NCBI GenBank assembly: GCA_032595675.1
Contig: JAVQMD010000002.1
Location: 930,001-994,000 of the forward strand
Direction of reading: 5' to 3'
Origin: Candidatus Electrothrix rattekaaiensis
GTDB lineage: Bacteria > Desulfobacterota > Desulfobulbia > Desulfobulbales > Desulfobulbaceae
DNA length: 64,000 nt
Shown here: positions 41,795-62,077 of the stretch, piece after piece
How positions within the stretch are numbered: the stretch's first letter is position 1
Layout: every line of letters begins with the position of its first letter
Notes under the pieces: generated by a model
Databases searched by the model: none
What the model was told of the DNA's origin: nothing
What the model saw: only the letters and a program-made list of their open reading frames with translations
Position numbers and translations under genes: made by a program

Positions 41795-44449
41795 TTGTCT
41801 GATACTCCAGCCTTTTTCGAGAACGGAGGCATCACACCTGCTGCTCCCTCCCCCAAAATGGTTCCCCCACAGAATGTGGAAGCGGAACAGGCCCTTCTTG
41901 GTACCATCCTGATTCAAGATAAGTCCTTGTTAAAAATTGTAGAACTCCTTTCTCCTGATGATTTTTACAGGGATTCCCATAAGGCAATCTTCGAGGTTAT
42001 GGTCAGCCTTTTTGAACGCAGTGAACCGCATGATCTGGTCACAGTAACCAGCTTGCTGCGTGATCAGAATAGACTGGAACATGTCGGCGGTTCTGCTTAT
42101 CTAACATCGTTAACTGATGTTATTCCTTTTACAGGAATGCTCGTTCATCATGCAAGGATTATACGAGAAAAGTCTATTCTTCGGAGGCTGATCGAGACCA
42201 GTAGCGATGTAGCTGCTCGTTGTTACGATGCCCAGGGTGACCTTGAGGCCTTAGTGGATAAGGCTGAGCAGACTATTTTTGAGATAGCCCAGGCCCGTAA
42301 GAAGCAGGGTTTTGAGCCCATGTCCAAGATTGTTCCCAAGGCTTTTGACCGGATTACAAAACTGGCAGAGCGAAAGGAACATATCACCGGAATCTCCACC
42401 GGATATGATGAACTGGATCGGATGACTGCTGGCTTGCAGTCATCGGACATGATTGTATTGGCTGGTCGACCGTCCATGGGAAAGACGGCTATGGCTATGA
42501 ACATAGTTCAACATGCTGCGCTGATCAATAAAGTGCCGGTAGCGGTCTTCAGTCTGGAGATGTCTATGGAGCAGCTTGCCCTGCGCATGCTCTGTTCTGT
42601 GGGTCGGATTGACGCGCAGCGGATTCGTACCGGGCATTTGCAGGATAACGACTGGCCTAAATTGACCAGGGCCACGGGGATGCTTGCGGATTCACCGATC
42701 TATATTGATGATACTGCCGGTATGACTGTCCTGGAGATGCGGGCCAAGGCCAGACGGCTGAAATCAGAGCATGACCTTGGGCTTGTGGTGGTGGATTATC
42801 TCCAGCTCATGCAGGGAAATTCCAGAATTGAAAATCGGACCCAGGAAATCAGTGATATCTCCCGCTCCCTCAAGGCGATGGCGAAGGAATTGGATGTCCC
42901 GGTTATTGCTCTGTCCCAGCTGAACCGGAGTCTGGAGAGTCGGACGGATAAGCGGCCCCAGCTTTCCGATCTTCGTGAATGCGTGACCGGCGATACCCTT
43001 GTTGTACTTACGGACGGTCGTCGCGTTCCTGTCCGTGAGCTGGTTGGTCAGACACCGTCTGTCATATCGGTAACACAGGACGGGCGGCTTGAACCTGCTG
43101 CAACTGAAAAGATTTGGTCTGTTGGGAAAAAAGAAACTATCCATATTAAATTTGCTAGCGGGCGCTGCTTGCGCTGTTCCGGCAAGCACCGTTTACGCGT
43201 TTTATGGAATTGGAAAGCTGCTCGGGAAGTACAGCCGGGTGATCGAATAGCCTTGGCCCGTCATTTCCCGGAACCGATCCAGCCGATTTCATGGCCTGAA
43301 CATCACATTATCCTGTTGGCGCATTTGGTCGGCGACGGCAGCTATGTGAAAAAGCAGCCTTTGCGTTATACTACTGCTAATGAAGAAAATAGCAGGGCGG
43401 TCACCGAGTCTGCACAAGCATTTGGTGCAATTGTTAATCGGCACAAAGGCAGGGGCAATTGGCACCAGCTGGTTATCAGCGGTAATGGCAACCGGTGGCA
43501 CCCGAAAGGTGTTGGCAAGTGGCTCAAGGATTTGGGTATATTCGGACAGCGTTCACATGATAAGTATCTGCCGCCCGGTGTCTTTCAGCTGCCGAATACG
43601 CAACTCGCCCTGTTTCTTCGCCATCTTTGGTCAACAGACGGCAGTATCCATGTCGGTAAAGAAAAACCGCGTATTTATTTTACGACGGCCAGCGAACTGC
43701 TCATTCATGATGTTGCTGCTCTGCTGATGCGTTTCGGTATTATTGCCCGTATCAAACATATCACTACTGCTGAAAGTCCGAGAGGGTGGTTTACAGCTGA
43801 TATTTCCGGTGCGGAACAGCACCGCATTTTTTTCAAAGAAATAGGCGTATTCGGTCCATGTCGAAAATATGCTGACCGTCTTGCGGAGTTTCTTGGAGCT
43901 ACAGTTGGAAATACCAACGTAGATACGTTACCAAAGGAAGTATTTGGCTACATACGTGAGCAGATGCGCCGTAAGGGGATCAGTCATCGCGATATGGCAA
44001 AAAGGCGAGGCACCTCCTACGGCGGTAGTGCCCATTTTAATTTTGCTCCTTCTCGTGCAACAGTGCTCAGTTATGCTGAGATTCTAGATGATGATCGGTT
44101 GCGTACAATTGTTCATGACGATTTTTTTTGGGATACTGTTGTATCGGTTGAGTCGGTAGGTGAAGAAGAAGTGTTTGATTTAACAGTACCTGGCAATGCC
44201 TGTTGGCTGGCGGACGGTATTGTCAGTCATAACTCGGGCGCAATTGAACAAGATGCAGATGTTATTATGTTTATCTACAGGGATGAGGTCTATAATAAGG
44301 CCGAGGATAATCCCAATCGGGGTATTGCCGAGCTGATTGTCGGTAAACAGCGTAATGGGCCTATCGGGACGGTGAAATTGACCTTTCTTGGGCATATCAC
44401 CACCTTTGAAAGTTATACTCATCAGGAGCCGCCTATCGGCTATGAGTAG
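41795..44449 (+). CDS. dnaB: Replicative DNA helicase DnaB with intein
   Basis: 884 residues starting at TTG, of which 466 remain after splicing, the usual DnaB size. The N-terminal domain (PPQNVEAEQALLGTILI) is followed by the RecA-like domain with Walker A LAGRPSMGKTAM (about residue 225) and the H3-type VVVDYLQLM. The protein is interrupted after QLSDLRE by an intein (396-813) and resumes with SGAIEQDADVIMFIYRDE. The mature protein is the hexameric 5'-3' helicase of the replication fork, so splicing must be efficient for viability. Confidence 0.95.
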   Translation: MSDTPAFFENGGITPAAPSPKMVPPQNVEAEQALLGTILIQDKSLLKIVELLSPDDFYRDSHKAIFEVMVSLFERSEPHDLVTVTSLLRDQNRLEHVGGSAYLTSLTDVIPFTGMLVHHARIIREKSILRRLIETSSDVAARCYDAQGDLEALVDKAEQTIFEIAQARKKQGFEPMSKIVPKAFDRITKLAERKEHITGISTGYDELDRMTAGLQSSDMIVLAGRPSMGKTAMAMNIVQHAALINKVPVAVFSLEMSMEQLALRMLCSVGRIDAQRIRTGHLQDNDWPKLTRATGMLADSPIYIDDTAGMTVLEMRAKARRLKSEHDLGLVVVDYLQLMQGNSRIENRTQEISDISRSLKAMAKELDVPVIALSQLNRSLESRTDKRPQLSDLRECVTGDTLVVLTDGRRVPVRELVGQTPSVISVTQDGRLEPAATEKIWSVGKKETIHIKFASGRCLRCSGKHRLRVLWNWKAAREVQPGDRIALARHFPEPIQPISWPEHHIILLAHLVGDGSYVKKQPLRYTTANEENSRAVTESAQAFGAIVNRHKGRGNWHQLVISGNGNRWHPKGVGKWLKDLGIFGQRSHDKYLPPGVFQLPNTQLALFLRHLWSTDGSIHVGKEKPRIYFTTASELLIHDVAALLMRFGIIARIKHITTAESPRGWFTADISGAEQHRIFFKEIGVFGPCRKYADRLAEFLGATVGNTNVDTLPKEVFGYIREQMRRKGISHRDMAKRRGTSYGGSAHFNFAPSRATVLSYAEILDDDRLRTIVHDDFFWDTVVSVESVGEEEVFDLTVPGNACWLADGIVSHNSGAIEQDADVIMFIYRDEVYNKAEDNPNRGIAELIVGKQRNGPIGTVKLTFLGHITTFESYTHQEPPIGYE
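42980..44233 (+). mobile_element. DnaB intein with LAGLIDADG (DOD) homing endonuclease
   Basis: 418 residues (396-813 of the precursor). It begins CVTGDTLVVLTDGRRVPV (splicing block A with catalytic Cys1), has the block B histidine in CSGKHRLRV, and ends GIVSHN with the penultimate His and terminal Asn. The next extein residue is Ser814. Two DOD motifs, LAHLVGDGS and FLRHLWSTDGSI, show an apparently intact homing endonuclease. The insertion point between DLRE and SGAIEQD matches the site used in the Rhodothermus DnaB intein as I recall it. Confidence 0.93.
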
Positions 44450-48286: not shown

Positions 48287-48354
48287 TATCTTTGTGTCTT
48301 TCTACCAGTGGCTGTTTTTTGATTTGCGACTGAAAGAAGATACAGGAATACTCG

Positions 48355-48396
48355 CACGGCTCTGTTCAGAACGGATGAACAGAGCCGTGTTTGTTT
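48355..48396 (+). terminator. Strong rho-independent terminator behind lptE
   Basis: Perfect 13-bp stem CACGGCTCTGTTC / GAACAGAGCCGTG (48355-48367, 48377-48389) with a 9-nt loop and TTTGTTTT behind it. It separates the leuS-lptE unit from the mglBA unit. The next 250 bp to 48646 hold a TATAAT (48529-48534) that may belong to the mglB promoter. Confidence 0.9.
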
Positions 48397-48646
48397 TGCC
48401 CTTTTGTCCTCAGTTTTCTCACGTTGCAGGTTATTCTGGAGTTGAAAATCACGGATAAATGCCTTGTTGATGTGCTCAAATTCAGCAGCGTCCCTTTGCT
48501 AGGAGATACGGAAAAAATAAAAAAATAGTATAATCATTAAAAACAGCTTCATATATGTGATTATCTGGCGTATAGTCAAAAAATGGAGAGATGCCGGTCG
48601 GCTCACCCCTGCCGGATAAACAATGCAATGTTAATGAGGAAATCAG

Positions 48647-49045
48647 ATGAATTACGGTGTGGTCAGCCAGGAACAGCTAGAAAAGATTGATGAAATCCTG
48701 TCGGAGCAGCTCATCAAGATAGGAGTAGACTGTGTCATCATTATTGACATGGCAGGGAACATCATTACTGCTAAGGACAACGGCACTTCCAAATATGATG
48801 TGTATTCATTCGCAGCTCTGGCAGCCGGTAATTTTGCCACTGTAGATGCTATGGCGAAATTGGTCGGAGAGCAGGAGTTTTCCTTGCTCTTCCATAAAGG
48901 GACGGATTGTAATATCCACTTTTCGAAAATCGACGAGGAGCTTTTGCTGATCACTATGTTCGGTAAGCATATTTCGCTTGGTTTTCTCAGGCTGAATGTC
49001 GTTAAGGCACTGGAACAGATAAGAAAACTCTGGGCTGGTAAATGA
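48647..49045 (+). CDS. Roadblock/LC7-domain protein (MglB-like)
   Basis: 132 residues, one roadblock domain. A helix (EQLEKIDEILSEQLIKIGV) leads into the beta-strand VDCVIIIDMAGNIITA, then the long helix YDVYSFAALAAGNFATVDAM and the final strands (LLLITMFGKHISLGFLRLNV). Such proteins form dimers that act as GTPase-activating partners of MglA-type GTPases. It lies 68 bp ahead of the GTPase gene, the mglB-mglA order of Myxococcus. It is shorter than M. xanthus MglB and lacks its C-terminal tail. Confidence 0.88.
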   Translation: MNYGVVSQEQLEKIDEILSEQLIKIGVDCVIIIDMAGNIITAKDNGTSKYDVYSFAALAAGNFATVDAMAKLVGEQEFSLLFHKGTDCNIHFSKIDEELLLITMFGKHISLGFLRLNVVKALEQIRKLWAGK

Positions 49046-49113
49046 TTTTTATTATGGCCTTTAGAGAATCGTCTCTTCAACAGCATTAATCCATATACAG
49101 CAGGAGAGAAGCA

Positions 49114-49719
49114 TTGAGCTTTATTAATCTACGCGAGAAAATCGTACAGGTAAAAGTCGTTTATTACGGTCCGGGCAGGGGGGGGAAAACCTCTAACCTT
49201 GAATATATCAATCGTAAATTCAGCAAGCAGATCCAGTCGGAAATGGTCAGCCTGAAGACACACGGTGATCGAACGTTGTTTTTTGATTTTCTTCCTTTTG
49301 ATATGGGAAAGATTAAGGGATACGAGCTGAAAATACAGCTTTATACTGTACCAGGTCAGGTGAAGTATAATGCAACTCGTAAGCTGGTTTTGAAAGGGGT
49401 GGATGGCTTAGTTTTTGTTGCTGACGCACAGGAAGCTATGCGGGAGAAGAATATACGTTCTCTTAATCAGCTGCATGAAAATCTCAAGAGCTATAAGGAA
49501 TCTATTTTTAAGATTCCTCTTGTCATGCAGTACAATAAGGTGGATTTGCGGAATCAAGGAATCCCGGTATTGCCGACTGCTGTTCTAGAAAAGGATCTGA
49601 ACAGCAAACTGAAAGTTCCTTCCTTTGAGGCCAGTGCCCTGACAGGATATAATGTCCCTGAAACGCTGAAAAAGATCATTTCATCCACAGTGGTGTCGGT
49701 GCAGAAGAAACTCTTGTAA
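49114..49719 (+). CDS. mglA: MglA-like Ras-family GTPase
   Basis: 201 residues starting at TTG (AGGAG ten bases upstream). The start SFINLREKIVQVKVVYYG is that of MglA. G1 is GPGRGGKTS (K25). DRTLFFDFLP and LYTVPGQVKYNATRKL are the MglA-specific switch regions. G4 is QYNKVDLRN. MglA cycles between poles in Myxococcus and sets front-rear polarity for gliding and type IV pili; the roadblock partner upstream would be its GAP. The third gene of the run, the giant acidic protein, begins 67 bp downstream. Confidence 0.92.
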   Translation: MSFINLREKIVQVKVVYYGPGRGGKTSNLEYINRKFSKQIQSEMVSLKTHGDRTLFFDFLPFDMGKIKGYELKIQLYTVPGQVKYNATRKLVLKGVDGLVFVADAQEAMREKNIRSLNQLHENLKSYKESIFKIPLVMQYNKVDLRNQGIPVLPTAVLEKDLNSKLKVPSFEASALTGYNVPETLKKIISSTVVSVQKKLL

Positions 49720-49786
49720 CGGGATACAATAACGGTATAGGTACGCTGTTGAGTACTGGCACCTCAGATGAGTCCGGACAAAAATT

Positions 49787-52700
49787 ATGCCCCCAGCAAT
49801 AGACGAATTTGAAGACCTCACACAATTTGCAGATGAGTCGTTTGATAATGATGAAGTTGATTTGTTTGAATTTACTGATGATGAGGAGTCGCCCCTTCTT
49901 CGTCTGAAGTCGATAGTTCTTTCTCTGGATTGGGATATCACCGAGGATACTCTGGCTGAGCTGACCGAAGAGTTATCTGATCTACGTTCTCTCTGGGATG
50001 GAGATAAGGTGGCGCAGATTTATCTTCAAGGAATGGATAATATCGGCAAGTATCTTCAGAAAGAGGGAGCATATGCCCACCCTAATGCCATTAAGCTTCT
50101 GTTAACACTCTTTTATAATTATGAAAAAATAATATCCTCGACAGATCTCAGCAGTGATACCGTAGCTGCCATGCTCAAGGCTGATGTCCGTAAATTTAAA
50201 GTGCTTCAGTACCAAATTGGCACGATAGGTGCCGAGGGGCATGCAGAGGCGCATGTCGAGGCGCATGTCGAGGCTGTAGCACCGCCTGAAGAAATAATTC
50301 AAGAAGACCTCCTTGCAAGCACATCCGTGCTGCGTGAGGAGAAAGACGATCCGTTGACCAGCATGGAAGCCACCATTCTTGGTTTGGAATGGGATGTTAC
50401 CCAGGAGGGGCTGGAGAAATTTCATTCTGAAGCCACGGAGTTGCGAGAGCATTTAACTGGTAATCGTGATGCACAAATTCTTGTGCAGGGATTGCAGGCA
50501 TTAGGATCATATATACGAGAGGAAAAATCAAACGCCCATCCAGACGCGTTTACCATCCTCCATGCGTTTTATGATGCTTTAAAGCTTTTGATTCAAGATA
50601 CGAATTTGACTGCTGAGCAACGGAAGCGGGTCTTGATGGAGCAGATCGGCAGTCTTAACAGCCTGAAAGCAATTATCGCCCAGTCGGCTGTTGAGCGAGC
50701 GGCAGAAAAAAGTTCTGGAGAGCAAGAAAAGACGGAAGCAGCTGAAACCCCTGATGTACCAGTACCGGAGCAAAAATCTGAAGAAGATGAAGAAGATCCC
50801 GAGTTGAGTACTGTCTCTGAGGACGATGCTGAGTTTGGTTCTCCTGTAGCAGATGATGACGAAGACCTGGATTTGTTTTCGGAGGATTTTAATGAGAGCT
50901 CTGACTTTTCAGCAGGCGGAGACGGGGAGGATGAATTTTTTCTTGATGGGGACGATAGCCTATCGGATGACGGCCTAGTAGATGAGGAAAGTATCGCTGG
51001 AGATTTTGACTTTGACGAGGAAGAGAGCGGGCTTGATTTTGAAGTAGAAGGGGGACTTGATGATGACCTGTTTGCCGATGAGGTGGAGGAAGGAGAACAG
51101 GAATTGAGCTTGGGTGATGACGCTTCTGGAGAAGAATCAATTCTTCCAGCTTTGACCGATGCTGATGAGGATGGCGGTTTTAATGAGGAACTTATAGCTG
51201 ACGGAATCGACGAAGAAAAAACTGCAGAACTTGATGAAAAACTGGACTCCTTTTTTGATTTTGACAGTGATGAATTCCAGGATGAACCTATAGAGCAACA
51301 GGAAGAAAAAAACGTTGTCGATGATGAGAGCAGCATAACCAAGGAAGAGCCAACTGCTGTCGAGGAAGAGGGCAAGAGTGAGCCGGGTGAATCAGACGAG
51401 GAACTTGATTCTTTTTTTGATTTTTCCGATGAAGTGGCTGATGATCAGGCCCCGAAAGAAGAAGAAAAGGCGCGTGTTGAGTCGTGGAAAAATGAGATCT
51501 TGAACTCAGATTTTGATGGGCCAGACGGAGAAGAGGAAGGCCTTTTGGAGGGTGAGGAGGATTACGATTCCTTTTTTGATTTTGACAGCGACGAAGATGA
51601 GGACGAAATCCTCCTGGATGAGCAGGCAGCCGTGACGGATAATGATGATACGTTAGCGGCAGGTGATGATGACATTGATATCTCTTTGGACGGTTTGGAC
51701 GACGAGCAGGAGAGTGAAGAACTAACTGTTGCCCTTGCAGATGCTGATGAAGAGGGGGGATTCAACGAAGATGAGATGTCGTCCGGTATTGCTGATGAAA
51801 AGGCGGCTGAGCTTGATGAAAAGCTGAATTTCTTTTTTGAGCTGGATAAGGAAGAGCAGGAAGAGTCGTCTGAAAACCAAATTTCTGGAGCAGAGGAAGA
51901 TGCTCCTGTCGTCACTGAAGCTCAAGCCGAACCGGATTCATTCGATGAGGAGCAGGGTGAATTCAGCTTAGGATTGGATGGCGACAGCTCAGAATTGTTG
52001 TTTGATGACGAAGACGATTTTGATGGAGATATTGCAGGATTTTCTGATACAGCCGATACAGAAGTTGTTAGCGCGACAGCTGGTCAAGACGAGAAATTTG
52101 CTTCGGATTCAGAAGAAGAACTAGACGATTTTGATGGAGATATTGCAGGATTTTCTGATACAGCCGATACAGAAGTTGTTAGCGTGACCGCTGGTCAAGA
52201 CGAGAAATTTGCTTCGGATTCAGAAGAAGAAATTGAGGGATTGGATGCCATCTTCGATTTAGACGATGACGCAGATGGGGGGCCTGAATTTGATAAATCA
52301 AGCGTAGGGGGACCAGAAGAGATACCTGCTTTAGATGACGAATTTGTTGTATCGCTTGATGATGAAGAGGAAAGCGCGGATGAACTCTTTGATTTTTCCT
52401 CTGATAGCGAGGAAGAAGAACAAGATGATATCTCTCTGGATTTAGGCGATGATGTTGAATCTGAGGAGAGCTTCTTTGGCTTGGAAGATGTTGACAAAGA
52501 GGTTGCGTCGGTAGGCGCAGGCTCCTCTTCAGCTGGAGCAGATGATGTTGGGCTTGAAGATGAGTTTACGTTATCGCTTGAAGACGACGACACAAGCGAC
52601 GACGATTTTGCTGATTTTTCTTTTGATAGTGAGGAGGAAGGCGAAAGCGATATCTCTTCAAAGCCAGTTAAGGAAGTGGAAGAAGAACTTGATGAGGAAT

Positions 52701-55700
52701 TCGCTTTATCTTTTGACGATGAAGGATCCGGTGAGGAAACAGAGGATTTTGACAGTTTCTTAGATCTAGAGGAAGACCTTGGCGAATCTCTAGAGTCAGA
52801 AGACCCCAAAGACCCATCTTCATTTGAAGAGCCAGTGGAAGAGATTGAGCTTGAAGATGAGTTTGTGTTGTCACTTGATGATGAATCGAGCGATAACGAT
52901 GAGTTATCTGAATTTTCTTTTGACAGCGATGATGCCGATGAAGGCGCAGTTGTCTCAGAATCCGTTTCAGCGTTAGAATCTGAGGATAGTTTCTTCGGTT
53001 TGGATGAGGAAACAGAGGCCGAAGCTGAGGCGGAGACCGCCGCAGTAGTTGAAGAGGAGGATTCAGAAGACGAGTTTGCCCTATCGTTTGATGATGAAGA
53101 GTCAGGCGAAGATGAGTTTGCGTTGTCACTTGATGAAGAACCGAGCGATCAGGATGAGTTGTCCGAATTTTCTTTTGACAGCGATGATGCCGATGAAGGC
53201 GCAGTTGTCTCAGAATCCGTTTCAGCGTTAGAATCTGAAGATAGTTTCTTCGGTTTGGATGAGGAAACAGAGGCCGAAGCTGAGGCGGAGACCGCCGCAG
53301 TAGTTGAAGAGGAAGATTCAGAAGACGAGTTCGCCCTATCGCTTGATGATGAAGAGTCGGATGAAGACTCAGACGAAGATGAGTTTGCGTTGTCACTTGA
53401 TGATGAACCGAGCGATAAGGATGAGTTGTCTGAATTTTCTTTTGACAGCGATGATGCCGATGAAAGTGCAGTTGTTTCAGAATCCGTTTCAGAGTTAGAA
53501 GAATCTGAGGATAGTTTCTTCGGTTTGGATGAGGAAACAGAGGCCGAAGCTGAGGCGGAGACCGCCGCAGTAGTTGAAGAGGTGGACTCAGAAGACGAGT
53601 TCGCCCTATCGCTTGATGATGAAGAGTCGGACGAAGATGAGTTTGCGTTGTCACTTGATGATGAACCGAGCGATAAGGATGAGTTGTCTGAATTTTCTTT
53701 TGACAGCGATGATGCCGATGAAGGCACAGTTGCCTCAGAATCCGTTTCAGCGTTAGAATCTGAAGATAGTTTCTTCGGTTTGGATGAAGAAGCCGGAGAA
53801 GAGGTTGAGGCGGAGACCGCCGCAGTAGTTGAAGAGGAGGATTCGGAAGACGAGTTCGCCCTATCGTTTGATGATGAAGAGTCAGACGAAGATGAGTTTG
53901 CGTTGTCACTTGATGAGGGGTCGAGCGATCAGGATGAGTTATCCGAATTTTCTTTTGACAACGATGAAGCCGATGAAGGTGCAGTTGTCTCAGAATCCGT
54001 TTCAAAGTTAGAAGAATCTGAGGATAGTTTCTTCGGTCTGGATGAGGAAGTTGAGGACGAGGTTGAGGCCGCAGAAGGAGCCGAAGCGAGTGACTCAGAA
54101 GACGAGTTTGCCCTATCGCTTGATGATGAAGAGTTGGATGAAGAGTCAGACGAAGATGAGTTTGCGTTGTCACTTGATGAAGAATCGAGCGATAATGATG
54201 AGTTTTCCGAATTTTCTTTTGACAACGATGAAGCCGATGAAGGTGCAGTTGTCTCAGAATCCGTTTCAGCGTTAGAATCTGAAGATAGTTTCTTCGGTTT
54301 GGATGAGGAAACAGAGGCCGAAGCTGAGGCGGAGACCGCCGCAGTAGTTGAAGAGGAGGATTCAGAAGACGAGTTCGCCCTATCGCTTGATGATGAAGAG
54401 TCGGATGAAGAGTCAGAAGAAGATGAGTTTGCGTTGTCACTTGATGAAGAACCAAGCGATAAGGATGAGTTATCCGAATTTTCTTTTGACAGCGATGAAG
54501 CCGATGAAAGTGCAGTTGTCTCAGAATCCGTTTCAGCGTTAGAATCTGAGGATAGTTTCTTCGGTCTGGATGAGGAAACAGAGGCCGAAGCTGAGGCGGA
54601 GACCGCCGCAGTAGTTGAAGAGGAGGATTCGGAAGACGAGTTTGCCCTATCGCTTGATGATGAATCGAGCGATAAGGATGAGTTATCCGAATTTTCTTTT
54701 GACAGCGATGATGCCGATGAAGGCGCAGTTGCCTCAGAATCCGTTTCAGCGTTAGAATCTGAGGATAGTTTCTTCGGTTTGGATGAGGAAACAGAGGCCG
54801 CAGAAGGATCTGAAGCGAGTGACTCAGAAGACGAGTTCGCCCTCTCGCTTGATGATGAAGAGTCAGACGAAGACGAGTTTGCGTTGTCACTTGATGAAGA
54901 ATCGAGCGATAATGATGAGTTTTCCAAATTTTCTTTTGACAACGATGAAGCCGATGAAGGTGCAGTTGTCTCAGAATCCGTTTCAAAGTTAGAAGAATCT
55001 GAGGATAGTTTCTTCGGTTTGGATGAGGAAACAGAGGACGAAGCTGAGGCGGAGACCGCCGCAGTAGTTGAAGAGGAGGATTCAGAAGACGAGTTCGCGT
55101 TGTCACTTGATGAAGAATCGAGCGATAATGATGAGTTTTCCGAATTTTCTTTTGACAACGATGAAGCCGATGAAGGTGCAGTTGTCTCAGAACCTGTTTC
55201 AGAGTTAGAAGAATCTGAAGATAGTTTCTTCGGTTTGGATGAGGAAACAGAGGCCGAAGCTGAGGCGGAGACCGCCGCAGTAGTTGAAGAGGAGGATTCA
55301 GAAGACGAGTTCGCCCTATCGTTTGATGATGAAGAGTCAGACGAAGATGAATTTGCGTTGTCACTTGATGAGGAATCGAGCGATAAGGATGAGTTGTCCG
55401 AATTTTCTTTTGACAGCGATGATGCCGATGAAGGCGCAGTTGTCTCAGAATCCGTTTCAGAGTTAGAAGAATCTGAGGATAGTTTCTTCGGTCTGGATGA
55501 GGAAGTTGAGGACGAGGTTGAGGCCGCAGAAGGAGCCGAAGCGAGTGACTCAGAAGACGAGTTTGCCCTATCGCTTGATGATGAAGAGTCGGATGAAGAG
55601 TCAGACGAAGATGAGTTTGCGTTGTCACTTGATGATGAACCGAGCGATAAGGATGAGTTTTCCGAATTTTCTTTTGACAGCGATGATGCCGATGAAGGCG

Positions 55701-57406
55701 CAGTTGTCTCAGAATCCGTTTCAGCGTTAGAATCTGAAGATAGTTTTTTCGGTTTGGATGAGGAAACAGAGGCCGAAGCTGAGGCGGAGACCGCCGCAGT
55801 AGTTGAAGAGGAGGATTCAGAAGACGAGTTTGCCTTATCGCTTGATGATGAAGAGTCGGATGAAGAGTCGGACGAAGATGAGTTTGCGTTGTCACTTGAT
55901 GATGAACCGAGCGATCAGGATGAGTTATCCGAATTTTCTTTTGACAGCGATGAAGCCGATGAAAGTGCAGTTGTTTCAGAATCCGTTTCAGAGTTAGAAG
56001 AATCTGAGGATAGTTTCTTCGGTTTGGATGAGGAAACAGAGGCCGAAGCTGAGGCGGAGACCGCCGCAGTAGTTGAAGAGGAGGATTCGGAAGATGAGTT
56101 TGCGTTGTCACTTGATGAAGAATCGAGCGATAAGGATGAGTTATCCGAATTTTCTTTTGACAGCGATGATGCCGATGAAGGCGCAGTTGTCTCAGAATCC
56201 GTTTCAGCGTTAGAATCTGAGGATAGTTTCTTCGGTTTGGATGAGGAAACAGAGGTCGAAGCTGAGGCGGAGACCGCCGCAGTAGTTGAAGAGGAGGATT
56301 CAGAAGACGAGTTTGCCCTATCGCTTGATGATGAAGAGTCAGACGAAGATGAATTTGCGTTGTCACTTGATGATGAACCAAGCGATAATGATGAGTTGTC
56401 TGAATTTTCTTTTGACAGCGATGATACCGATGAAGGCGCAGTTGCCTCAGAACCTGTTTCAGCGTTAGAATCTGAAGATAGTTTCTTCGGTTTGGATGAG
56501 GAAACAGAGGCCGAAGCTGAGGCGGAGACCGCCGCAGTAGTTGAAGAGGAGGATTTGGAAGATGAGTTTGCGTTATCACTTGATGAAGAATCGAGCGATA
56601 AGGATGAGTTGTCCGAATTTTCTTTTGACAGTGATGAAGCCGATGCAGCTTTAGATCGTGCCGCTGCATTCACCTCGGAAGCAGCCGTTTCTGCTGAAAC
56701 TGCTTCGGACGAGGAAAACGAGTTCTTGCTCGATCAGAAACTTGAGCAGGCGTATGATGTTGAAGAGCAAAGAGAAAGCAGGTTTTTGTCGGCTGAAGAT
56801 GCTGTTAAAGGAGATTCCGAGAAGATTATAGACACGGAATCCGCTTCTTTCTTGGAAAGCGAGGAAGAAGGAAAGCAGCTCGGGGATGATAAAGACACAG
56901 AAGATGTTACACCTTTTTTCGATGTTGCGCCTTTTGTTGCCGCCGCTGCTGCGGTTTCTTCTACACTGTCTGTTGATAATGTACGATCTGTCAATGAACT
57001 GGCAGGAGCTGCTAAGAGGCGCGGAGGAACCCAGCAGCAAATAGTGATTCTCCATCTCTTGGAATCCGCAACCGCTCTTATCGGGCAAAAGTCTGAGCCG
57101 GATAACGATGATCAGGTTGTGGTCCAAGAGCTGGTGGCCGGGCTTGAACTCGCAGCTGAGGATCCCTTTGAGCTCACGGCCTTGGTCCATCATTACACAG
57201 CTTGGCAGCAGGAGTTTTTTCGCTCACTACTGGCCCGTAAAGAAGAGCAGCCGGTTCAGCCAGCAGCAGCTCCTTCACCACCTATTCTTTCGGATAGTAT
57301 CAGCAATATGGACGCAGTCCATCAGGTCCAGGAGGGTTTCTCACAGTTGCGGGAGGCCATGATGGAGGAATTCAACCACCTGAGAAAAGAACTGAAAAAA
57401 GGATAA
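49787..57406 (+). CDS. Giant acidic repeat protein, candidate MglA partner or scaffold
   Basis: 2,539 residues. Two related helical domains lie near the N-terminus (about 40-145 and 195-300), each opening with a short Leu-Asp/Glu-Trp-Asp motif (SLDWDIT and GLEWDVT) and sharing AxxHPxAxxxL. An acidic, degenerate repeat zone (about 330-1020) has recurring LDEKLDSFFDFD phrases. The array of 15 near-identical units (about 1020-2285) carries EDEFALSLDDE, ELSEFSFDSD and SEDSFFGLDEE blocks. The C-terminus is a helical domain ending in QVQEGFSQLREAMMEEF. No signal peptide or membrane segment is seen, so it should be cytoplasmic. Asp, Glu and Ser dominate, so the middle must be disordered and highly negative. 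I know no described protein of this make-up. It sits in the mglBA unit. Confidence 0.85.
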   Translation: MPPAIDEFEDLTQFADESFDNDEVDLFEFTDDEESPLLRLKSIVLSLDWDITEDTLAELTEELSDLRSLWDGDKVAQIYLQGMDNIGKYLQKEGAYAHPNAIKLLLTLFYNYEKIISSTDLSSDTVAAMLKADVRKFKVLQYQIGTIGAEGHAEAHVEAHVEAVAPPEEIIQEDLLASTSVLREEKDDPLTSMEATILGLEWDVTQEGLEKFHSEATELREHLTGNRDAQILVQGLQALGSYIREEKSNAHPDAFTILHAFYDALKLLIQDTNLTAEQRKRVLMEQIGSLNSLKAIIAQSAVERAAEKSSGEQEKTEAAETPDVPVPEQKSEEDEEDPELSTVSEDDAEFGSPVADDDEDLDLFSEDFNESSDFSAGGDGEDEFFLDGDDSLSDDGLVDEESIAGDFDFDEEESGLDFEVEGGLDDDLFADEVEEGEQELSLGDDASGEESILPALTDADEDGGFNEELIADGIDEEKTAELDEKLDSFFDFDSDEFQDEPIEQQEEKNVVDDESSITKEEPTAVEEEGKSEPGESDEELDSFFDFSDEVADDQAPKEEEKARVESWKNEILNSDFDGPDGEEEGLLEGEEDYDSFFDFDSDEDEDEILLDEQAAVTDNDDTLAAGDDDIDISLDGLDDEQESEELTVALADADEEGGFNEDEMSSGIADEKAAELDEKLNFFFELDKEEQEESSENQISGAEEDAPVVTEAQAEPDSFDEEQGEFSLGLDGDSSELLFDDEDDFDGDIAGFSDTADTEVVSATAGQDEKFASDSEEELDDFDGDIAGFSDTADTEVVSVTAGQDEKFASDSEEEIEGLDAIFDLDDDADGGPEFDKSSVGGPEEIPALDDEFVVSLDDEEESADELFDFSSDSEEEEQDDISLDLGDDVESEESFFGLEDVDKEVASVGAGSSSAGADDVGLEDEFTLSLEDDDTSDDDFADFSFDSEEEGESDISSKPVKEVEEELDEEFALSFDDEGSGEETEDFDSFLDLEEDLGESLESEDPKDPSSFEEPVEEIELEDEFVLSLDDESSDNDELSEFSFDSDDADEGAVVSESVSALESEDSFFGLDEETEAEAEAETAAVVEEEDSEDEFALSFDDEESGEDEFALSLDEEPSDQDELSEFSFDSDDADEGAVVSESVSALESEDSFFGLDEETEAEAEAETAAVVEEEDSEDEFALSLDDEESDEDSDEDEFALSLDDEPSDKDELSEFSFDSDDADESAVVSESVSELEESEDSFFGLDEETEAEAEAETAAVVEEVDSEDEFALSLDDEESDEDEFALSLDDEPSDKDELSEFSFDSDDADEGTVASESVSALESEDSFFGLDEEAGEEVEAETAAVVEEEDSEDEFALSFDDEESDEDEFALSLDEGSSDQDELSEFSFDNDEADEGAVVSESVSKLEESEDSFFGLDEEVEDEVEAAEGAEASDSEDEFALSLDDEELDEESDEDEFALSLDEESSDNDEFSEFSFDNDEADEGAVVSESVSALESEDSFFGLDEETEAEAEAETAAVVEEEDSEDEFALSLDDEESDEESEEDEFALSLDEEPSDKDELSEFSFDSDEADESAVVSESVSALESEDSFFGLDEETEAEAEAETAAVVEEEDSEDEFALSLDDESSDKDELSEFSFDSDDADEGAVASESVSALESEDSFFGLDEETEAAEGSEASDSEDEFALSLDDEESDEDEFALSLDEESSDNDEFSKFSFDNDEADEGAVVSESVSKLEESEDSFFGLDEETEDEAEAETAAVVEEEDSEDEFALSLDEESSDNDEFSEFSFDNDEADEGAVVSEPVSELEESEDSFFGLDEETEAEAEAETAAVVEEEDSEDEFALSFDDEESDEDEFALSLDEESSDKDELSEFSFDSDDADEGAVVSESVSELEESEDSFFGLDEEVEDEVEAAEGAEASDSEDEFALSLDDEESDEESDEDEFALSLDDEPSDKDEFSEFSFDSDDADEGAVVSESVSALESEDSFFGLDEETEAEAEAETAAVVEEEDSEDEFALSLDDEESDEESDEDEFALSLDDEPSDQDELSEFSFDSDEADESAVVSESVSELEESEDSFFGLDEETEAEAEAETAAVVEEEDSEDEFALSLDEESSDKDELSEFSFDSDDADEGAVVSESVSALESEDSFFGLDEETEVEAEAETAAVVEEEDSEDEFALSLDDEESDEDEFALSLDDEPSDNDELSEFSFDSDDTDEGAVASEPVSALESEDSFFGLDEETEAEAEAETAAVVEEEDLEDEFALSLDEESSDKDELSEFSFDSDEADAALDRAAAFTSEAAVSAETASDEENEFLLDQKLEQAYDVEEQRESRFLSAEDAVKGDSEKIIDTESASFLESEEEGKQLGDDKDTEDVTPFFDVAPFVAAAAAVSSTLSVDNVRSVNELAGAAKRRGGTQQQIVILHLLESATALIGQKSEPDNDDQVVVQELVAGLELAAEDPFELTALVHHYTAWQQEFFRSLLARKEEQPVQPAAAPSPPILSDSISNMDAVHQVQEGFSQLREAMMEEFNHLRKELKKG
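52850..56640 (+). repeat. 15-copy in-frame DNA repeat inside the giant gene
   Basis: The marker GATAGTTTCTTCGG occurs at 52985, 53240, 53510, 53765, 54023, 54284, 54551, 54764, 55004, 55220, 55478, 55739 (one T for C), 56009, 56222 and 56477. Spacings are 213-270 bp and all are multiples of three. Units differ mainly by gain or loss of a second EDEFALSL block and by small insertions. DNA identity between units is very high, including at third codon positions. Confidence 0.95.
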
Positions 57407-57415
57407 CTCGAGAAT

Positions 57416-58045
57416 ATGTTCGATTTTCTGCAAAGGACGCTCTCGTCACTTGGCAGAAAGTACATCATGGCCGTAACCGGTTTTCTCCTTGGTGTCTTTC
57501 TGCTAATTCACGGAGTAGGCAACAGTTTTATTTTTTTTGGTAAAGCCGCTTTTAATGCCTATGCAGAGCAACTGCATTCGTTAGGCCCGCTGGTTCCTGT
57601 GGCAGAGCTTCTTCTGCTCATAGTCTTTCTGACGCATATTTTTATCGGTATTACCCTCTTCTTCAAGAATCGGGATGCAGCTGGCAGCAGGTACGCTGTA
57701 ACGAGTTCATCAGGGGGAGAAACCTGGGGTTCTCGTACCATGCCGTGGACCGGTCTGATTATTCTCGCCTTCCTCTTGCTTCACCTTTTCAATGTCCGCT
57801 TTGTGGATCAAACTCTGCCTATTGCGGACGTTGTTGATCGGACTTTGGCCAATCCCCTTTACACCCTGTTGTACCTTTTCGGCATCACTGCGTTGACGCT
57901 GCATATCAGTCATGGATTCTGGTCGTTATTGCAGACCAATGGCGTTTATCATCCTCGGTATAACAGCCTGATTCGGAAGGGGGCCTGTTTGCTGACGGCT
58001 TTTATCTGTATGGTCTTTATCGGCGTTGTTGTGGTATTATGGTGA
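57416..58045 (+). CDS. sdhC: Succinate dehydrogenase/fumarate reductase cytochrome b subunit
   Basis: 209 residues with five hydrophobic segments, the B. subtilis-type single anchor subunit. Histidines suitable for two haems lie in the segments: LLIHGVGN, the LHSLG region, LTHIFIG, LLLHLFN and LHISHGFWS. It would carry electrons between menaquinone and the flavoprotein/iron-sulfur head on the membrane. It begins nine bases after the giant gene's stop and ends 128 bp before sdhA. Confidence 0.9.
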   Translation: MFDFLQRTLSSLGRKYIMAVTGFLLGVFLLIHGVGNSFIFFGKAAFNAYAEQLHSLGPLVPVAELLLLIVFLTHIFIGITLFFKNRDAAGSRYAVTSSSGGETWGSRTMPWTGLIILAFLLLHLFNVRFVDQTLPIADVVDRTLANPLYTLLYLFGITALTLHISHGFWSLLQTNGVYHPRYNSLIRKGACLLTAFICMVFIGVVVVLW

Positions 58046-58173: not shown

Positions 58174-60102
58174 ATGCATCTCAATCCCAATACCCCCTCC
58201 GGCCCCTTACACAAAAAATGGGACAACTGTCGTTTCAGTAATAAATTAGTCAGCCCGGCTAATCGGCGCAAATACGAAGTCATTGTGGTTGGTACCGGCT
58301 TGGCCGGGGCCTCGGCAGCGGCTTCGTTAGGCGAATTGGGCTATAACGTCAAGTCCTTCTGCATTCAGGACAGCCCCCGTCGTGCCCACTCCATTGCGGC
58401 TCAGGGCGGAATCAATGCTGCCAAGAATTATCAGAACGATAGCGACTCTATCCATCGCCTTTTTTACGATACCATCAAGGGCGGCGATTTTCGCTCTCGC
58501 GAGGCAAATGTGTATCGCCTTGCCCAGATTTCCAACGCCATCATTGATCACTGTGCAGCCCAAGGTGTGCCCTTTGCACGCGAATACGGCGGCACCTTGG
58601 CGAATCGTTCCTTTGGTGGATCCCAGGTTTCCCGAACCTTTTACGCCCGTGGGCAGACTGGTCAGCAGCTCTTGCTTGGGGCCTATTCTGCCTTGATGCG
58701 GCAGGTTGCAGCTGGTAAGGTCACTCTCTATTCGCGTCGGGAGATGATGGACGTGGTCGTGATCGACGGGCAGGCACGGGGTATAATTGTCCGTAATCTG
58801 ATCACCGGGGAGTTGGAGCGCTACTCAGCCAATGCGGTTGTACTGGCCACAGGTGGCTACGGTAATGCCTTTTATCTGTCCACCAATGCAATGGCGAGCA
58901 ATGTCACCGCAGCTTGGCGGGCCCATAAGCGGGGTGCCGGATTTGCCAACCCCTGTTTTGTCCAGATCCATCCGACCTGCATCCCGGTACATGGTGATTA
59001 CCAGTCCAAGCTGACCCTGATGAGCGAAAGCCTGCGCAATGATGGCCGGGTCTGGGTGCCTCAGAAGACGAATGATCGTCGTAGCCCTGCTGATATCCCG
59101 GAGGCAGAGCGCGATTATTACCTGGAGCGCAAATATCCCGGCTTTGGTAATCTCGTTCCCCGAGACGTGGCCTCGCGCAATGCCAAGGAGGTCTGCGACC
59201 AAGGGCAGGGCGTGGGCGAGACCGGGCAGGCAGTATATTTGGATTTTGCTGAAGCTATTGAACGGGACGGCTCGAAAACCATTCTGAAGAAGTACGGCAA
59301 CCTTTTTCAGATGTACGAGCGCATCACCGCCTCAGATCCTGTTCAGGAACCGATGATGATCTATCCGGCAGTCCATTATACCATGGGCGGGCTGTGGGTG
59401 GACTACCAGCTCCAGTCTTCCCTGGATGGTCTGTTCGTCATTGGCGAGGCCAACTTTTCTGATCACGGGGCCAATCGGCTCGGGGCCAGTGCTCTTATGC
59501 AGGGGCTGGCAGACGGGTATTTCATCCTGCCTGCGACCTTGGGCAATTATTTGGCAAAAGCTGGCGCGGATCGTCCGGCAGTTGAGTCTCCAGCCTTTGC
59601 TGCGACAGAGGAGGAGGTTACGGCGCGGATTGCTCGGCTCCTCCGTAATCGGGACTGGAAAAAGTCTGGTACTCAGCCGGTGGATTATTATCACCGCAAG
59701 CTTGGTGTGTTGCTTTGGAATCACTGCGGCATGGCCCGTCATGAGGAAGGGTTAAACAAGGCCCTTGCCGAGATCCCGGCTCTTCGGGAAGAGTTCTATA
59801 CAAATGTCTATATTCCCGGAACCGGCCAGGAGCTGAACCAGTCGCTGGAAAGGGCCGGTCGGGTGGCGGACTTCCTGGAATTTGCTGAGGTCATGGTTCT
59901 GGATGCCCTAGAACGGAAGGAGTCTTGCGGTTGTCATCTGCGGGAGGAAAGTCAGACCGAGGAGCATGAGGCCAAGCGGGATGATGCACAGTATTCGCAT
60001 GTGACGGTCTGGGAGCATAGAGGGGTTGGACAGCCTCCTCTCTTCCATCAGGAGCCGCTTGAGTTCAAGGCGGTTACGCTTTCGCAGCGGAGTTATAAGT
60101 AG
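58174..60102 (+). CDS. sdhA: Succinate dehydrogenase/fumarate reductase flavoprotein subunit
   Basis: 642 residues. The FAD-binding start is [21 protein letters not shown]. The histidine that covalently carries FAD is in [16 protein letters not shown]. Substrate-site residues lie in [11 protein letters not shown] and [11 protein letters not shown]. The C-terminal helical domain ends [18 protein letters not shown] and a short tail, all as in the menaquinone-linked enzymes. It oxidises succinate or reduces fumarate. The iron-sulfur subunit gene, normally next, is absent; a TA module occupies the place. Confidence 0.95.
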
Positions 60103-61655: not shown

Positions 61656-62077
61656 TTATCCTTTCTTTTTGCCATGTTTCTGCAAATACAGCTCAATCTC
61701 TTCTGGAGAAATGCCTTTCAGTCGATCATCCGACGAGAAGTGTTGCAACACTTCATCCGGCGAAAGTCCTTTAAGACGATCATCCGGTGAAAATCTGTCC
61801 AGTACCTCATCCGGTGAAAACCTATCAAGCACTTCATCGGGTGAGAGCAGGCTCAGATGATTTTTAACATAATCTCTTTGAAAATCTTTCATTGTGTAGG
61901 ACACGGGGAATCCCTCCAAATTGTAATTATCAAACAGGCTGTTCAGCACTGTGCTGATTTCCTGGGTTTTGCCTCTGTACTGACGGGCTGCGAATTCAAC
62001 TTCTCCTGGGATACCGCTGAACAGATGCCAGATCGCGTTGTGTTTTGCATGTGGGACAACTCCGGCTGTTCAATCAT
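61656..62077 (-). pseudogene. Rpn/YhgA-like transposase-associated nuclease, 3' remnant
   Basis: The minus strand encodes the C-terminal half of a Rpn-type protein: NAIWHLFSGIPGEVEFAARQ, YNLEGFPVSYTMKDFQRDYV and a tail of repeats (SPDEVLDRF twice, DDRLKGLSP, SPEEIELYLQK). The first 14 codons from the ATG at 62077 are in another frame, which joins at about 62035, and the N-terminal nuclease domain is missing. The tail repeats are seen in DNA as TCATCCGGTGAAA phrases at 30-60-bp spacing. Confidence 0.6.

Follow-up and report, generated by a model that had tools for sequence, protein, structure and literature searches.

A giant acidic protein encoded behind mglB and mglA in a cable bacterium: a candidate CheA-like adaptor between the MglA switch and type IV pili

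MglA/MglB modules and the mglB-mglA-X locus

In Myxococcus xanthus, the GTPase MglA and its roadblock partner MglB act together with SgmX, FrzS and SopA. PilB, the pilus ATPase, is directed in this organism by a tetratricopeptide repeat (TPR) protein and by partners that are disordered or modular; it reaches the cell pole through MglA and the TPR protein SgmX, by a mechanism that is stated as open (PMC11580455). In a survey of prokaryotic small GTPases the neighborhoods of the large MglA groups 1, 4 and 5 were found to vary widely (PMC4316618). Here, we analyzed a stretch of 64,000 nucleotides (the window) from the cable bacterium Candidatus Electrothrix rattekaaiensis (Desulfobacterota, order Desulfobulbales), corresponding to positions 930001 to 994000 of contig C2 of a 4.48 Mb genome in five contigs. 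In the window, mglB and mglA are followed by a gene for a giant acidic repeat protein, which we call X. Gliding and oxygen-dependent behavior of cable bacteria have been published (PMC12449579), and an involvement of pili has been proposed (PMC10580974). For this gliding and response to oxygen, mglB-mglA-X is a candidate module.

The genes mglB (48647–49045, 132 amino acids (aa)), mglA (49114–49719, 201 aa) and X (49787–57406, 2,539 aa) are all located on the + strand in this order, with gaps of 68 bp and then 67 bp. A prediction made earlier from the sequence alone (the original prediction) had described exactly this arrangement of a roadblock/LC7 gene, a Ras-like GTPase gene with MglA switch sequences and a very long third gene, and it was confirmed by the open reading frames (ORFs), by Pfam and by alignments with the Myxococcus proteins. 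MglB matched Pfam Robl_LC7 with 28.6 bits (cut-off 23) and Myxococcus MglB with 64 bits, the range over solved MglB structures being 36–64 bits; its match to the NCBIfam MglB model, which has a Thermus-type basis, stayed under the cut-off of that model. MglA matched Pfam Ras with 38.6 bits (cut-off 21.6) and aligned to Myxococcus MglA with 168 bits, sharing the GPG..GKT P-loop as well as DRTLFFDFLP and LYTVPGQ. The start codon of mglA is TTG, and the resulting 201 aa are the length of nearly all orthologues. One protein combines a Ras-like G domain and P-loop with DRTLFFDFLP and YTVPGQ, the switch sequences of MglA, and the other has a roadblock/LC7 domain and similarity to solved MglB. On this basis the two products can be assigned to MglA and MglB, and they appear ordinary by sequence. 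The locus had been put forward as a candidate new polarity or motility system; we regard it as a variant of the MglA/MglB module and not as wholly new.

The unusual part is X. The TPR-PilB fusion gene that adjoins X operons of several classes parallels the TPR protein and PilB of Myxococcus. Unlike SgmX, X has no TPR repeats, which sit in the neighboring PilB fusion, and unlike the Myxococcus partners it is encoded in the mgl operon and built from bundles resembling the P1 domain of CheA, with CheW in relatives. SopA, which is reported only in Myxococcales (PMC11580455), is likened to X by architecture alone. X resembles the kinases CheA and ChpA in one or more N-terminal bundles that are predicted to be P1-like and, in many X relatives, in a C-terminal CheW domain; in contrast to them, X lacks the HATPase kinase domain and the conserved phosphorylated histidine, and LDx[LF]F motifs occur in its acidic linker. 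In terms of role, the Pseudomonas Pil-Chp hubs FimV and FimL (PMC12632253) are comparable as non-enzymatic hubs that localize pilus regulators, a likeness drawn without sequence comparison, but the Pil-Chp system has no MglA homologue. Actinobacterial conservons (CvnA-D) also hold MglB- and MglA-type genes plus an extra protein in a conserved operon. They differ from the X locus in gene content and order: X is not a histidine kinase like CvnA, has no CvnC-type Pfam match and has lptE and sdhC/sdhA as neighbors. We propose, with a probability of roughly 0.55, that X is a kinase-less CheA-like adaptor which relays the state of the MglA/MglB switch, together with chemosensory input, to the extension ATPase of type IV pili, and which has become a multivalent giant in the cable bacterium.

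X as a protein family and its linkage to mglA

With the first 311 residues as query, X homologues were found in 80 of the 146 genomes of the order. X lengths in the loci read ranged from 225 to 2,549 aa, the shortest ones ending at contig edges, and most homologues have 200–1,300 aa. Near the N-terminus, members of the family have one or two domains of ~110 aa with the consensus LKxIILSLDWEITD ... YLQxLxxLGxYI ... AHPxAIKLLxxVYxxLEKI. An acidic linker comes next, followed in most proteins by a diverged extra copy of the domain and a C-terminal helix. The whole giant X gave no match in Pfam and both of its ends gave none in NCBIfam, and a profile of the domain obtained chance matches only in Pfam, NCBIfam and PDB sequences. 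No Pfam or NCBIfam model covers X, and the family is apparently undescribed. MglA, MglB, CheW, HPt-like bundles and PilB have each been described before. We found neither a report of MglA in cable bacteria nor a conserved combination of an X-type protein with MglA, CheW and PilB in the open-licence literature; a prior description elsewhere is possible.

Throughout the phylum, X is closely tied to mglA. For 163 of 176 distinct X genes, ORF calls place the gene on the same strand within 700 bp 3' of mglA (median gap 13 bp; 19 overlap). A tblastn search on the exceptions revealed four more that adjoin mglA (L080, L209, L253 and L186, in our numbering of loci), bringing the count to 167 of 176. 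Of the remaining genes, three (L176, L210, L212) lie further downstream within the gene run of mglA, at a distance of a few genes, a contig end truncates another one, and five are stand-alone. X is carried by every genome of the order that encodes an MglA with at least 65% identity (78/78), and X without such an MglA was observed in two genomes only. On a tree built from 173 MglA proteins, 7 changes sufficed for the X label, compared to a mean of 22.9 after shuffling. The MglA link of X is well supported. The link between the giant gene and mglBA, which the original prediction would have given up if homologues usually occurred without mglBA, has thus held, as has the expected co-occurrence in the order. 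Since other MglA types of the phylum have no X, the protein goes with particular MglA lineages and not with every MglA.

A near one-to-one pairing of X and MglA is also what a direct regulator would give. X could act in the GTPase cycle as an exchange factor, or as a GTPase-activating co-factor with MglB, and so be a counterpart of RomR/RomX or RomY; RomR is reported to connect chemosensory signals with MglA/MglB in Myxococcus (PMC3441718). However, Pfam finds no receiver domain in X, and the linkage to PilB-type ATPases (see below) favors an output role, so that we consider a regulator of this kind improbable.

Some loci depart from the common arrangement. In a second MglA type (L249, L250, L252, L280-L282), a separate TPR protein of ~300–375 aa precedes mglA and no X gene is present. 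At L245 and L248, a TPR-PilB fusion gene lies directly 3' of mglA with no X between. Contig C1 of the genome under study encodes a stand-alone X relative of 237 aa (L193:6104-6817, - strand) with a similar C-terminal tail; it lies beside a receiver-PAS-histidine kinase gene, has no mglBA nearby and is without the LDx[LF]F motif. In a genome of the same family (L225:6758-8593, - strand), X was kept, mglBA is gone from the locus and no MglA was found in the genome. Clear linker motifs are lost in this X.

Predicted CheA-like bundles, linker motifs and pilus genes

Two related domains had been predicted at the N-terminus of X; both were recovered by a hidden Markov model (HMM) and are conserved in homologues. 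AlphaFold2 (65 sequences) modeled domain 1 (aa 38–144; 49898–50218, + strand; HMM 126 bits) and domain 2 (aa 190–297; 50354–50677, +; 114 bits) as two five-helix bundles of the same fold, with a predicted local distance difference test score mostly above 90 and a disordered stretch between them. Just upstream of domain 1, alignment revealed a VDLFEF segment (aa 24–29; 49856–49873, +) that is near-invariant in the two-domain X proteins of the order. In VIA-align, chains of CheA P1, a histidine phosphotransfer (HPt) domain, were among the best matches of domains 1 and 2 (Z 10.4–11.8). The individual Z values were 11.8 for 1i5n, 11.7 for 2lp4, 11.2 for 3kyj, 11.0 for 3kyi, 10.9 for 8c5v and 10.4 for 2ld6 (111–120 residues). 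The helical C-terminus of the original prediction was borne out as well: a separate model (28 sequences) contained a third five-helix bundle, domain 3 (aa 2381–2487; 56927–57247, +), for which CheA P1 ranked first (Z 9.7–11.1; 1i5n 11.1; 108–120 residues taking both models together) and an HMM match is clear in relatives only, and a long terminal helix (aa 2507–2538; 57305–57400, +) with a conserved LRxxxxxEFxxLRxEL tail in the alignment. The nearest named relative of domain 1 is found in Candidatus Electrothrix aarhusensis (96% identity), followed by other Electrothrix and Electronema.

X proteins of other classes carry a CheW domain at the C-terminus (Pfam E = 1.6e-17, 1e-14, 1.7e-13 and 1.7e-11), which lends support to a fold match that would be no proof by itself. 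An iterative search reached CheW in 46 of 192 X proteins, and CheA and CheW structures were matched by profile. A P1-like end combined with a CheW end would represent the outline of CheA minus the kinase. A match of the N-terminal domains to some unrelated function, which would have spoken against the predicted link, was not observed; their predicted fold resembles CheA P1 and the CheW domains of relatives point to signalling. In X of the window and in the 15 X-domain proteins examined from relatives, Pfam found no HATPase kinase domain, no TPR repeats and no receiver domain. The possibilities that X is a TPR, RomR-like or kinase protein were rejected on these grounds. In 65 sequences there was no conserved histidine in helix 2 of the domain, the site used by CheA, the conserved histidines lying elsewhere, and only three X proteins out of 192 contained HxxKG, at scattered positions. 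Because helix 2 has no conserved histidine, the domain is probably a docking module and does not serve phosphotransfer.

The acidic linker is enriched for a short motif. A set of 145 X proteins contained 298 occurrences of [LIVM]Dx[LF]F, where shuffled linkers gave an expectation of 8.9; the typical form is E-[IL]-E-x-K-[LI]-D-x-[LF]-F-[GA]-[ED]. A stricter form reached 2.00 per 1,000 aa in X, compared with 0.04 in the proteins of neighboring genes. Among the complete X proteins adjoining mglA, 132 of 140 have the loose form. The strict form was present in 121 of 140 X proteins beside mglA and in none of the five stand-alone ones, one of which has a loose LDDFF in its linker; with n = 5 only, this absence may be taken as suggestive. 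In X of the window, the motif scan detected LDSFF twice (aa 486–490, 51242–51256; aa 540–544, 51404–51418) and LNFFF once (aa 680–684, 51824–51838), all on the + strand. FliM N-termini of the order (SQDEVDALLKG) have VDxL(L/F) in common with X motifs such as AVDDLFG. This resemblance to CheY-binding peptides was kept as a lead only, since the hydrophobic residue in front of the motif is spaced differently.

A gene for a TPR-MshEN-T2SSE protein follows X in several classes. The product is an extension ATPase of the PilB type that carries TPR repeats at its N-terminus, and the gene is immediately 3' of X in 34 loci. In a diverged MglA class (48–56% identity), TPR-PilB was present beside the X position in 17 of 18 loci fetched, the other locus ending at a contig edge. 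The Electrothrix genome itself encodes PilM, four PilB/GspE-type ATPases and four PilT-like ATPases, and several CheW-containing ORFs, three of them of CheA size; no FliM was found in it. The pilus link of X is good. Filament gliding or cell-cell organization had been suggested in the original prediction; the evidence favors type IV pili over gliding by some other engine and has no bearing on cell-cell organization. The natural TPR-PilB fusion beside mglA-X provides a direct clue to the delivery of PilB to the pilus machine by MglA effectors, a step still open in Myxococcus (PMC11580455).

The gene order mglA-X-TPR-PilB would likewise fit a direct MglA effector or scaffold that places the pilus ATPase, as a counterpart of SgmX, FrzS or SopA, with the CheA-like parts being recycled helical bundles that have no chemosensory role. 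CheW is missing in most X proteins of the order, and SopA, which acts on PilB, likewise has a folded end on either side of a disordered linker (PMC11580455). However, genuine CheW domains in X of several classes are hard to explain without a link to CheA or a receptor array, and we regard a purely effector-type X as rather unlikely.

We favor the kinase-less CheA-like adaptor. With P1-like bundles that lack the phosphorylated histidine, and with CheW in many lineages, X would most likely work as a docking hub and not as a phosphotransfer enzyme, positioned between the GTPase module and the pilus extension ATPase as in the genetic order mglB-mglA-X-(TPR-PilB) of many classes. MglB would set the GTP state of MglA and thereby choose the site where X gathers. 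The gathered X, fed with chemosensory input via its CheA-like parts, would license pilus extension at that site, and the LDx[LF]F motifs may recruit a partner. In the cable bacterium the CheW part is absent, with two N-terminal bundles and one C-terminal bundle left, and the linker would have been amplified to a multivalent array that holds more partners per molecule. What the sequences show is the linkage of the genes, the domains present, the enrichment of the motif and the lack of both kinase and histidine; the chemosensory role, the binding partners, the direction of the signal, the multivalency and a pilus output in Electrothrix are inferred.

Several observations weigh against the adaptor model. 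The surveyed genomes are related and not independent, so a Fisher value calculated for the link to mglA does not stand for a probability, and a few MglA loci of the phylum have no X (e.g. L265-L275; the TPR-MglA pairs L249, L250, L252, L280-L282). Z values below ~13 for helical bundles may, according to the VIA tool note, reflect a mere common arrangement; a designed repeat protein scores as high as CheA P1, and Foldseek E-values were above 0.1. X of the window, which ends in a helical bundle, contains no CheW, nor do its close relatives in the order, and in these relatives a PilB gene is usually not beside X. Finally, the LDx[LF]F motif was defined after viewing the sequences, so its counts describe and do not test.

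As it stands, X is a concrete candidate partner for the MglA switch and suggests a path, accessible to testing, by which sensing could control pili; the family hints at a link that has been missing among sensing, cell polarity and movement on surfaces. A wider version, which we put forward as tentative and doubtful, would see X as an undescribed, widespread third component of MglA/MglB systems that forms a physical connection of the Ras-like switch with chemosensory arrays and with the motor of type IV pili. The cable-bacterium giant would then, as a highly negative multivalent scaffold, concentrate receiver-type partners or pilus ATPases, possibly in a condensate, and coordinate movement of the multicellular filament.

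The tandem array in Electrothrix and the surroundings of the locus

The central part of X in the window is an acidic tandem array (52853–56590, + strand) of 15–16 units of 213–267 bp with DEFALS, SEFSFD and DSFFGL motifs. Tandem Repeats Finder gave a period of ~255 bp with 87% match. The motif scan counted 16 DSFFGL (spacing 71–90 aa), 16 (S/K)EFSFD and 27 DEFALS. The original prediction of 15 units with three motifs each was therefore close in the number of units (~15–16) but not in their make-up, as the motifs are not equally represented and many units hold two DEFALS copies. The net charge is -892, with 14 lysine and arginine residues in aa 1041–2330 (1,290 residues), and the array has zero cysteine, histidine and tryptophan. 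The 16 copies of DSFFGL give the impression of a relative of the linker motif that has decayed and been amplified.

The same locus is present in separate species of the genus Electrothrix, where X has 2,549 aa (L033), 1,920 aa (L034) and 1,421 aa (L073), and array length and motif make-up vary among them. Because independent species show the locus with differing array lengths, the giant X is not an assembly artifact. The giant repeats are peculiar to Electrothrix and not general in the X family; as most homologues have 200–1,300 aa, the conserved function of X cannot need 15 repeats. Of the predicted multivalent cytoplasmic scaffold, a disordered, multivalent adaptor in the cytoplasm stays reasonable, but the 15-repeat array is not the basis of the conserved function. 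The quick change of the array between species (1,421 to 2,549 aa) and the fact that much shorter homologues work would also be in line with charged filler, i.e. a neutral tandem expansion of the disordered linker, which concerns the array only and is compatible with the other readings. Against this stand the aromatic-acidic motifs, which were kept despite DNA divergence, the 7.6 kb without a stop codon and the family-wide enrichment of LDx[LF]F in linkers. We consider a filler array possible, though on the unlikely side.

Opposite the array, an antisense ORF of 1,333 aa is located at 52668–56669 (- strand). It is a by-product of the repeats, with no sign of being a gene.

At the 5' side of the unit, a consensus scan detected a terminator-like hairpin of 15 pairs 3' of lptE (48354–48390, + strand) and a sigma-70-like promoter match (9/12) upstream of mglB (48548–48576, +). 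Hairpin and promoter-like site likely mark the start of the mglB-mglA-X unit. At the 3' side, sdhC follows X after 10 bp (57406–57416), and sdhA lies further downstream (58174–60102), both on the + strand. The order X-sdhC was also seen in two other genomes of the genus Electrothrix, but not in Electronema. The neighborhood was treated as local because it is not kept in Electronema, and sdhC/sdhA were dropped as functional partners of X.

Two further ORFs of the window were noted. A DnaB helicase ORF of 884 aa (41795–44449, + strand) appears to contain an intein, with an insert between ..DLREC and SGAIEQD.. that ends in VSHN. A short ORF at 61656–61949 (- strand) carries tandem repeats of the LSPDEVLDRFSPDD type.

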